A stretch of 64,000 nt of DNA from Blautia faecicola. GTDB taxonomy: Bacteria; Bacillota; Clostridia; Lachnospirales; Lachnospiraceae. How positions within the stretch are numbered: the first letter of the stretch is position 1; each line of letters starts with the position of its first letter. Location: assembly GCF_004123145.1 (NCBI RefSeq), contig NZ_SDKC01000001.1:1569501-1633500 (forward strand). Reading direction: 5' to 3'. The notes under the pieces were generated by a model that did not search any database, was not told the origin of the DNA, and saw only the letters and a list, made by a program, of their open reading frames with translations. This document shows, in pieces, positions 48,737-51,691 of the stretch. Both the position numbers and the translations under genes were made by a program.

Positions 48737-51691
48737 ATGAATGTAAAATTAAAATCTGGAAGCAAGCAAGCAAGCAAGCAAGCAAGCAAGCAAGCAAGCA
48801 AGCAAGCAAGCAACTGTAGCCTAGAGGATGGGAGAAAGATGAAGAAGTGCAAATTAGTACAGAATATAATGAATTTCAAATTTTGTTACATTATATTTTG
48901 CACAATTATATGTTTTATTGTTTTATCCGTTCCTACATCTGCCAAAGAAAACTCTGACAATGTTATCCGGGTAGGATCTTTTGAAGAAACTTATAATACC
49001 GTCAATGAAAAGGGGGAAAGAAGAGGATATGGTTATGAGTATCTTCAAGATATAGCAGGTTATGCAGGTTGGAGCTATGATTACATAACAAGTAATTGGA
49101 AAGATTGCTTTACACAGTTGGAAAATGGAGAAATTGACATTCTTGGCGGTATTTCCTATACAGACGAACGTGCTGAAAATATGCTTTTTTCCGATATGCC
49201 TATGGGAGAAGAAAAATATTACATCTATACGGATACCTCAAATATGGATCTTACAGCAGGAAATCTTGACTCTTTCGAGGGGAAAAATATTGGTGTATTT
49301 AAAGATCATATACCGGAGGATGTGCTTAACGAATGGGAGTCAAAGTATGGTCTGCATACGCAGCATGTCAATGCTTCTAATACCGCAGAAGTTATGGACA
49401 AACTGTCGAAACATGAAATTGACTGCTTCGTTTCAGTAGAAGAATCCCGTTGGGAAGAATCTGATATTTCGCCTGTTACAAGTATTGGAGAGACAGAAAT
49501 CTATTTTGCCATAAATCCCAAACGTCCGGATATCAAAGAAGCACTGGATAGTGCTATGCGCAGAATCAAGGATGACAATCCATTTTACACTGATGATCTC
49601 TACAGGCGTTATCTTTCTGCACAGAGCAGCTCGTTTCTTTCAAATGAAGAAAGGGATTGGATCGGGCAGCATGGAGCAATCAGGATAGGGTATCTGAATC
49701 AGGATGGAGGTATCAGCAGTGTAGATCCATCAACAGGCAAATTGACAGGTGTTATCACAGATTATGTGGATCTTGCCCAAAATTGTCTGCAAGGTCAGAC
49801 TCTGGAATTTGAATTAAATGGATATGATACAAGAAGTGAACTGCTTCAGGCATTGCAGGATGGAAAAATAGACCTGATTTTTCATGCAAACCAGAATCCA
49901 TACTTTGCAGAAACAAATGGATTTGCTTTGTCGGATACGCTATTGACTCTCAATATGGCAGCAATTACGGCAAAGGATTCTTTTGATGAAAATAAAGAGA
50001 ATATAGTTGCCGTTGAAAAAGATAATTTTGCATTGAAGGCATATCTTTCATACAATTATCCACAATGGGAGGTTATAGAATATGGGATATCAGATGCAGC
50101 AGTAAAAGCGATGCAGAAAGGGGAGGCAGATTGCATTGTAAGCAATTCAGGTACTGTTTCTGACTATTTGAAAAATAATAAGCTTCATAGTGTTTTCCTG
50201 ACAAAAGAAGCCGATGTTTCATTTGCTGTTCGGCAGGGAGAACCGGTTCTTTTGTCCATTCTGAATAAAACACTGACATCTATGCCTGCAGCTCAATTCT
50301 CGGGGGCAGTAGTTTCGTATAATGCTTCCGCACGAAAAGTTACAGCGAAGGATTTTATTCAGGATAATTTACTGGCTGTCTCATTCATAGTTGGAATCTC
50401 TATTTTTGTTGTCCTGTGTATAATTCTTGATTCTTTGAAAAAATCAAAACGTGCGGAAGAAAAATCCAAGAAGTCTGCTGAGCAAGCATTGAAGCTGAAT
50501 CAGGAGCTTGAAGAAAAACAGCAGGAATTACAAAATGCACTTGTAGAAGCACAGAGTGCCAATAAGGCTAAGACTTCCTTTTTAAATAACATGTCTCATG
50601 ACATCAGGACACCGATCAATGGCATTATGGGCATGCTTACAATTCTTGAAAAAAGCGGAAATGATGGTGAGCGGGCAAAAGATTGTCTGAACAAAATTGA
50701 TAAATCGTCAAAGTTGCTGTTATCATTGGTAAATGATGTTTTAGACATGGCAAAGTTAGAATCGGATACCGTGGTTTTTAGTGATGAATCCATCAATCTG
50801 GATCAGGTATGTCAGGAAATCACGGAGTCACTATCTTTTCAGGCAGAAGAAAAAGGACTTCATGTTATAGAAGAACATGATGATTACAGTGGTATATATG
50901 TTTGGAGCAATGCAGTTCATCTGAAAAAAATATTGATGAATCTGTTTACAAACAGTATGAAGTACAATAAGGTGAATGGTTTTATTTACATGAGTATGAG
51001 AACGATTGAAAGATCAGAAGATCACATGACATGTGAATTTAAAATAAAAGATAATGGAATTGGAATGTCAGAAGAATTTATAAAAAATGAATTGTTTACT
51101 CCATTTGTACAGGCAGATAATTCCCCACGTTCTGATTATAATGGGACAGGTCTTGGAATGCCTATTGTGAAACAACTTGTAGAAAAGATGGGTGGAACCA
51201 TAACAGTTGAAAGTAAGCTGGGTGAAGGGAGCTGTTTTACTGTAGTACTTCCATTTGAAATTGATACGAATGCACGATCGGAAGAAAAAGAAGATTTCAA
51301 TGCAGATATATCAGGTGTCCGGATATTATTGGTTGAAGATAATGAGCTGAATGCGGAAATAGCAGAATTTATGCTGACGGAAAATGGGGCTAAAGTAGAA
51401 ACAGTGAAAAATGGGTTAGAAGCTGTTCAGCACTTTGAAGCCTGCGAATCAGGAACATACGATGTTATTTTAATGGATGTCATGATGCCGGTGATGGATG
51501 GGCTCACTGCAACAAAAACAATAAGATCCCTGGAACGGCAGGATGCAAAAACAATCCCTATCATTGCTATGACTGCAAATGCATTTAGGGAAGATGCTGA
51601 AAAGTGCATTGCCGTGGGTATGAACGCTCATTTGGCGAAACCTTTGGATATTGAAAAGATGAAAAAGACTATTAAAAGTAGTTGTTCCTAA
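48737..51691 (+). CDS. Hybrid sensor histidine kinase 4 (two periplasmic-binding domains)
   Basis: A 984-residue EvgS/BvgS-like kinase (950 if it starts at 48839). After the repeat tract comes a signal-type hydrophobic stretch, two family 3 solute-binding (PBPb) domains (about residues 75-300 and 310-540), a transmembrane helix (about 552-572), a coiled coil, HisKA with His621 in MSHDIRTPING, HATPase (DNGIGMS, GTGLGMPIVKQL) and a receiver (LLVEDNELNAE, MDVMMPVMDG). A c-di-GMP riboswitch precedes it. ATG 48737 has a GGGGAGG 13 bases away; ATG 48839 has GGGAG four bases away and leads straight into the signal peptide. Both are in the same frame now. Confidence 0.92.
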   Translation: MNVKLKSGSKQASKQASKQASKQASNCSLEDGRKMKKCKLVQNIMNFKFCYIIFCTIICFIVLSVPTSAKENSDNVIRVGSFEETYNTVNEKGERRGYGYEYLQDIAGYAGWSYDYITSNWKDCFTQLENGEIDILGGISYTDERAENMLFSDMPMGEEKYYIYTDTSNMDLTAGNLDSFEGKNIGVFKDHIPEDVLNEWESKYGLHTQHVNASNTAEVMDKLSKHEIDCFVSVEESRWEESDISPVTSIGETEIYFAINPKRPDIKEALDSAMRRIKDDNPFYTDDLYRRYLSAQSSSFLSNEERDWIGQHGAIRIGYLNQDGGISSVDPSTGKLTGVITDYVDLAQNCLQGQTLEFELNGYDTRSELLQALQDGKIDLIFHANQNPYFAETNGFALSDTLLTLNMAAITAKDSFDENKENIVAVEKDNFALKAYLSYNYPQWEVIEYGISDAAVKAMQKGEADCIVSNSGTVSDYLKNNKLHSVFLTKEADVSFAVRQGEPVLLSILNKTLTSMPAAQFSGAVVSYNASARKVTAKDFIQDNLLAVSFIVGISIFVVLCIILDSLKKSKRAEEKSKKSAEQALKLNQELEEKQQELQNALVEAQSANKAKTSFLNNMSHDIRTPINGIMGMLTILEKSGNDGERAKDCLNKIDKSSKLLLSLVNDVLDMAKLESDTVVFSDESINLDQVCQEITESLSFQAEEKGLHVIEEHDDYSGIYVWSNAVHLKKILMNLFTNSMKYNKVNGFIYMSMRTIERSEDHMTCEFKIKDNGIGMSEEFIKNELFTPFVQADNSPRSDYNGTGLGMPIVKQLVEKMGGTITVESKLGEGSCFTVVLPFEIDTNARSEEKEDFNADISGVRILLVEDNELNAEIAEFMLTENGAKVETVKNGLEAVQHFEACESGTYDVILMDVMMPVMDGLTATKTIRSLERQDAKTIPIIAMTANAFREDAEKCIAVGMNAHLAKPLDIEKMKKTIKSSCS
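48760..48811 (+). repeat. Tetranucleotide repeat, 13 copies of AAGC
   Basis: Thirteen perfect AAGC units run from 48760 to 48811. They lie between the first possible start of kinase 4 (ATG 48737) and a second possible start (ATG 48839). In the upstream frame they encode repeated Lys-Gln-Ala-Ser. Gain or loss of one unit shifts that frame, the hallmark of slipped-strand phase variation. Confidence 0.95.

Follow-up and report, generated by a model that had tools for sequence, protein, structure and literature searches.

Repeat-based phase variation is mostly known from host-adapted pathogens. Several described systems, summarized here from parts of the cited papers, come closest to the locus under study. 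In gonococci, a locus with (AAGC)2-3 was invariant in reads, and a locus that carries (AAGC)4-15 among strains varied; of the six strains listed for autA, five had (AAGC)3 and one had (AAGC)14 (PMC5320596). The pil1 locus of S. gallolyticus has a phase-variable leader-peptide attenuator with GCAGA repeats (PMC3894217), while the AGAT repeats of M. catarrhalis uspA2 exert a graded effect on mRNA (PMC7302503). Lastly, cmrRST and flgB of C. difficile combine a riboswitch and heritable switching on one operon, and the described cases of c-di-GMP with switching rely on DNA inversion (PMC6837544). The titles listed by searches of the open-access literature included none on such repeats in Lachnospiraceae.

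The window, i.e., the whole 64,000-nucleotide stretch of DNA that was analyzed, contains an AAGC tract ahead of a hybrid sensor kinase gene, together with the following elements.

48480..48508, + strand: promoter-like TTGTGT-17-TATAAT, recognized by eye and not listed by the promoter scan; a possible promoter of the riboswitch transcript
48545..48620, + strand: c-di-GMP-I riboswitch aptamer (Rfam RF01051, 59.5 bits against a gathering score of 35)
48629..48656, + strand: terminator-like hairpin with an 8-pair stem (48629-48649, followed by TTTTTTATGG) and a T run, the probable expression platform of the riboswitch
48717..48723, + strand: GGGGAGG, Shine-Dalgarno-like by direct reading, 13 nt before ATG 48737
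48727..48755, + strand: promoter-like TTGATA-17-TAAAAT, 10 of 12 consensus matches
48737..48739, + strand: upstream ATG, opening a short ORF that has 12, 15 or 21 codons in relatives
48760..48811, + strand: AAGC x13, by direct reading and Tandem Repeats Finder; a further AA extends to 48813
48830..48834, + strand: GGGAG, the kinase ribosome-binding site (kept in 13 of 13 sequences)
48839..51691, + strand: hybrid sensor kinase of 950 amino acids (ORF list and domain search), its start present in 13 of 13 sequences

The initial annotation had described 13 perfect AAGC units between two possible starts of a two-sensor hybrid kinase, behind a c-di-GMP riboswitch, and in these respects it was borne out. 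Direct reading confirmed 13 perfect units followed by AA (48760-48813), and Tandem Repeats Finder returned the same interval with period 4, 13.5 copies, 100% matches and a score of 108, as against 59 for the runner-up tandem repeat of the window. The tract lies approximately 140 bases 3' of the aptamer, between ATG 48737 and ATG 48839. The RF01051 match, which is above its gathering score, is followed 9 nt past the last aptamer base by the hairpin, as in a c-di-GMP-I riboswitch, and this hairpin (48629-48649) is the single terminator-like site in 48400-48900. The kinase, which we take to be BvgS-like, has two SBP_bac_3 stretches and the HisKA, HATPase_c and Response_reg domains, and its N-terminus from 48839 resembles a signal peptide by eye.

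The tract is the sole AAGC run of at least 5 units across the 3.74-Mb genome, and in a 464-kb sample of it, made up of the window and twenty 20-kb stretches, the runners-up among tetranucleotide runs had 3 units; for these reasons, the tract was judged not to be due to chance. No comparable run was found in four other genomes of the same genus, which, together with the single occurrence here, suggests that the genome is not rich in contingency repeats. Overall, the repeat in this riboswitch-controlled kinase leader is real and unusual, and it is probably labile.

Relatives of the locus were collected by a protein search of GTDB contigs (best 80), a DNA search of 397 family genomes, and from the genus of G322; weaker DNA matches (67-71%) were excluded. 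At least 12 other sequences with a matching kinase start were retrieved (L021, L022, L023, L101-L108 and L131). Since L021 and L107 are one contig, these represent 11 distinct relative genomes, or 13 sequences from 12 genomes with the window, in a set that is not exhaustive and whose members are not independent of one another. The named ones are Fusicatenibacter saccharivorans, Brotaphodocola catenula and Blautia wexlerae, and from these three names the relatives are taken to belong to one family, the Lachnospiraceae. All 11 relatives found had 2-3 AAGC units, counted by eye in L131 (AAGT and two AAGC) and L022 (two AAGC and AGGC); set against the 13 units of the window, this comparison supports lability of the tract between species.

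The same alignment bears on where translation starts. Both ATGAAGAAGTGC and GGGAGAA are kept in 13 of 13 sequences (12 genomes). Since the kinase ATG and its ribosome site are thus conserved 3' of the tract, and ATG 48737 is in frame in none of the 11 relatives, translation most likely starts at 48839. In 17 more distant homologues (N-terminal identity 21-54%), a signal-peptide-like stretch was seen by eye near the likely, unproven start, and neither the repeat nor an extension of the 34-residue type was seen by eye in any of them. In the window itself, ATG 48737 and ATG 48839 are 102 nt apart in one shared frame, forming a 984-codon ORF (48737-51691). As had been claimed, a change of one unit does shift the frame from 48737: it then stops at a TAG, 14 nt before 48839 with 12 units and 19 nt before it with 14 units. 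The upstream ATG is present in 13 of 13 sequences, and only in the window does the short ORF run on into the kinase in the same frame. Among the 11 relatives, 7 have a 21-codon version whose TGA overlaps the kinase ATG, and the remaining 4 have a shorter one of 12 or 15 codons (L131 read by eye). A 34-residue extension of the kinase is therefore possible in the window only, where ATG 48737 is preceded by GGGGAGG and an in-frame extended kinase could be made.

The kinase gene probably spread horizontally, judging from its sequence: in nine genomes outside the genus it is 92.0-95.4% identical, whereas ORF 13729-15414 of the window, presumably formyl-THF ligase, shows 68-83% identity over the longest match in the same nine. 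The next kinase gene and its flank (window 51845-53999) reach 98.6-98.7% identity to their counterparts in four other genera (L193, L194, L196 and L197), and the neighboring kinase in those genera is 92.0-94.4% identical, i.e., lower; because of this disparity, the kinase genes seem to have been exchanged as separate modules.

Several other features of the neighborhood are recorded here. In L192 (G235), the kinase is broken, with the 5' part and an inverted 3' part (9172-9807 and 16526-17065) about 7 kb apart and a large surface-protein-like ORF between them. A 146-nt direct repeat, 94% identical, occurs at window positions 26391-26536 and 54040-54185, and the first of these overlaps the tmRNA (26064-26413) at its 3' end; the two copies are possibly the ends of a 27.6-kb island that holds the kinases and riboswitches. 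No integrase was recognized by eye among the window ORFs listed. The XRE-type regulator upstream (48086-48367) has a different and shorter C-terminus, with 93 amino acids compared to 110 in L023. There are two group II intron domain-model matches in the window (region list 27279-27412, 44096-44313, 44461-44766), and the second is followed by an ORF that, by eye, resembles the N-terminus of an intron reverse transcriptase. The leader motif had no exact match in viral contigs and no match in plasmids; the phage search gave one 63-nt match (90.5%) to the aptamer region, in an unannotated record.

The riboswitch lies directly upstream of the kinase in the window, in L101, L102 and L131, and by sequence in L023, that is, in 4 of 10 relatives examined, with L022 outside the count. 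In G162 and G235 it is found 1.7 and 3.3 kb upstream of the kinase, respectively, with other sequence intervening, and no riboswitch at gathering score was found in the fetched stretches of G194, G141, G121 and G031. A congener homologue, L011, which is 52% identical, also has a c-di-GMP-I match upstream. The c-di-GMP riboswitch is a separable module. These results qualify the proposal of layered control, in which heritable variation would be added to second-messenger dosage: the riboswitch and kinase are indeed present, but the proposal is weakened because the riboswitch is directly upstream in only those 4 relatives and because the promoter-like site between the terminator and the tract could bypass it.

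Two further properties of the leader were considered. The predicted probability that the kinase ribosome site is unpaired was 0.40 to 0.44 at all 11 unit numbers tried between 1 and 20; occlusion of this site was accordingly rejected as a route of action, although predicted openness of the kinase AUG did shift, being 0.58 with a single unit and 0.70-0.78 with 7-20 units. Between ATTAATG and the kinase ATG, the window and its relatives differ at 33 of 718 leader sites, compared to 281 of 2457 four-fold sites in the kinase gene (11 rows, with the tract collapsed, L103 dropped for its ORF breaks, and one genome represented twice). However, four pairwise comparisons between relatives showed leader differences about as large as those at four-fold sites (0.061/0.066, 0.081/0.068, 0.145/0.146 and 0.091/0.107, leader first); thus, the data do not establish that the leader is under purifying selection, and constraint on the leader core was dropped as a candidate.

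AAGC runs in other genomes provided a broader view. Runs of at least 5 units were found in 14 of the 397 genomes of the family, the window's own included, and in 2 of 375 outside the family, both of the same class (Clostridia); the reversed motif occurs in 0 of the 397 and, in the search that covered the outside genomes, in 1 of all 391 genomes searched. Without the window's own genome, the difference between family and outsiders (13/396 vs 2/375) has a Fisher p of 0.007. A frequent layout at the other loci is TTGACA...ATG...(AAGC)n. In 9 of 13 family loci, a promoter-like site matching the consensus in at least 9 of 12 positions ends within 8 nt of the tract (shuffle mean 0.64, maximum 4 in 1000). 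As the idea of this adjacency was formed on five loci, it was tested afresh on 8 others, where it was found in 5, a number reached by 0 of 2000 shuffles; it also holds in both of the loci found later outside the family. An ATG located 15-30 nt upstream and open into the tract is present in 10 of 13 family loci (shuffle mean 4.0, maximum 10). A T run within 45 nt after the tract occurs in 8 of 15 non-window loci; shuffled versions of these stretches would give about 3.0. The flanks of the tract tend to be complementary (mean z of -1.20 over 14 loci, Stouffer -4.48; mean z about -1.0 without L221), with p<0.05 at 5 of the 14 (L134, L136, L137, L228 and L221) and positive z at L133, L139, L144 and L227. 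It is to be noted that L221, having been found by its TTGACA, was left out of the promoter-adjacency and open-ATG tests and counted in the means of the promoter shuffle test and the flank-complementarity test. A simple promoter model for every other AAGC locus, with the tract placed at +1, was rejected, since flanks are complementary at several of them.

Variants of this leader were also searched for. The pattern GGGTTGACA..AAGCAAGC occurs in 4 of 14 genomes and is lacking in the window's own genome. The combination of TTGACA and three or more AAGC units was found in 7 of 396 genomes and gave no locus beyond the AAGC set. By itself, AAGGGGTTGACAGG is present in 4 of 199 genomes (G163, G016, G179 and G078): in G163 it marks an AAGC locus already in the set, in G016 it marks L221, where (AACAG)16 takes the place of the AAGC run (position 1501 of its reverse strand), and there is no repeat at the places L223, L226 and L224 (G179, G078). 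Downstream genes were surveyed at 12 loci, of which three end at the tract. Six of the genes have a signal-peptide-like start by eye (L133, L135, L137, L158, L140 and L144); according to Pfam, one of these has a Divergent InlB B-repeat domain and another an MBG domain, with no domain recognized in the remaining four. Among the other downstream genes, Pfam identified an AMP-binding enzyme at L134 and, on the opposite strand, a polysaccharide pyruvyl transferase at L143; L142 gave no match. Leader runs with TTGACA and an open ATG were seen at L133, L135, L137, L140, L142, L144, L145, L158, L227, L228 and L221; some of them have a T run and complementary flanks, and several precede genes that look secreted. 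By analogy, they resemble a group of phase-variable leader attenuators of the pil1 type. A Clostridiales-1 RNA was noted within about 120 nt of the AAGC tract in L140 (1235-1392) and L144 (1637-1794). The window leader has in common with the other loci a G-rich stretch, TTGA, an ATG and the tract; it has no T run within 45 nt 3' of the tract and no stem between the tract flanks (z=+0.40).

Considering all of the above, we regard the tract as probably a microsatellite that has expanded in this lineage, located in the 5' leader of a hybrid kinase gene that spread horizontally and whose protein is made from ATG 48839. At 13 units, the tract would be expected to slip; addition or loss of units would leave the kinase frame intact and alter the length of the leader. 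In transcripts that include ATG 48737, the number of units would also determine whether the short ORF ends 19 nt or 14 nt before the kinase or fuses with it in frame. The expected outcome would be graded expression, not an on/off switch; alternatively, an N-terminally extended kinase would be made at 1, 4, 7, 10, 13 and so on units. The tract thus probably fine-tunes the kinase from the leader. The fallback offered in the initial annotation, namely a start at 48839 with the tract altering leader spacing, fits the data best. Three narrower readings are sub-forms of this explanation, and their odds overlap.

A real possibility, though short of probable, is that the tract lies at a transcription start, with TTGATA-17-TAAAAT driving the kinase and the number of units setting leader length only, which would put the locus alongside M. 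catarrhalis uspA2 and other loci with an upstream tract. The repeat does lie between a promoter, as recognized by consensus, and the ribosome site; the promoter-like site, first noticed by eye, ends 4 nt upstream of the tract with p=0.007 against 300 shuffles, and a site of at least 9 of 12 matches with a spacing of 16 or 17 is present in 13 of 13 aligned sequences. The adjacency at other AAGC tracts points the same way. Nonetheless, the base composition leads one to expect 1.6 sites of this quality per 501 nt, a consensus match alone does not make a promoter, and the complementary flanks at 5 of 14 other loci suggest that the upstream part is transcribed there.

Somewhat less likely is that the expansion is neutral, or an artefact of culture or assembly, without any effect. 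Expansion in just 1 of 12 genomes, the window's own, would agree with this, as would the absence of another long tetranucleotide run in the 464-kb sample and the unaffected access to the ribosome site in silico. Against it, AAGC runs in other genomes adjoin sequences of promoter-like or leader character at a higher rate than in shuffled controls.

We consider unlikely a phase-variable upstream ORF, in which a leader peptide would be translated and the frame in which ribosomes exit the tract would set their coupling to the kinase start, as a translational analogue of the pil1 attenuator (PMC3894217). The universal upstream ATG, the TGA overlapping the kinase ATG in most relatives, and the similar ORF layout at other AAGC runs are consistent with such coupling; however, the 13-nt spacing between GGGGAGG and the ATG is long, the promoter-like site overlaps the start of the ORF, the T run and flanking stem are absent after the tract, and slippage is hardly expected in relatives with 2-3 units.

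Finally, the heritable on/off switching originally proposed, i.e., a classic frame-switching contingency locus starting at 48737, has an in-frame ORF, TAG stops in the other two frames and a precedent in AAGC runs inside neisserial autB (PMC5118866), but it was rejected as very unlikely because the kinase ATG and ribosome site persist after the tract in every sequence aligned, 48737 is in frame in 0 of 11 relatives (L131 by eye), and such an extension was seen by eye in 0 of 17 homologues.

A wider reading, to which we assign a low likelihood, is that AAGC leaders of Clostridia (TTGACA, start codon, (AAGC)n) constitute a recurrent contingency device, a pil1-like attenuator in surface-protein genes, and that the window holds a rewired version, in which a phase-variable leader ORF feeds the start of a c-di-GMP-riboswitch-controlled kinase and tunes it heritably by translational coupling. 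AAGC leaders of secreted-looking genes would extend the pil1 mechanism to gut commensals, and a labile leader microsatellite, set before a riboswitch-controlled sensor kinase of a gut commensal, would be a simple way for cells of one clone to differ in signaling.

Comparison with the known systems, as portrayed in parts of the cited papers, places the locus among them. Like C. difficile cmrRST and flgB, it has a c-di-GMP riboswitch on a signaling or motility operon, but those operons switch by an invertible DNA element (PMC6837544), whereas no inverted pair of at least 12 nt flanks the window leader, the sole such pair in 48380-48900 being at 48860-48900, inside the kinase ORF. With pil1 it shares a unit not divisible by three, in a short ORF ahead of the regulated gene (PMC3894217); here, the ORF is a predicted one that overlaps the promoter-like site. 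In pil1, unlike in the window, the repeats are followed by a terminator, and their number has been seen to change, with a link to expression (PMC3894217); in the window, the kinase start comes after the tract and the only terminator-like hairpin in the stretch scanned comes before it. Neisserial autA and autB share the AAGC unit and have few units in some alleles and 14-15 in others (PMC5118866, PMC5320596); the autB repeats lie within the coding sequence and break it (PMC5118866), in contrast to the window, where a start codon follows the tract and unit changes would not abolish the product. M. catarrhalis uspA2 likewise has a tetranucleotide run, AGAT, upstream of the ORF, but it encodes a surface protein, and the portion of the paper drawn on here does not mention a riboswitch for it (PMC7302503). 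Each ingredient of the arrangement in the window, therefore, has a precedent.
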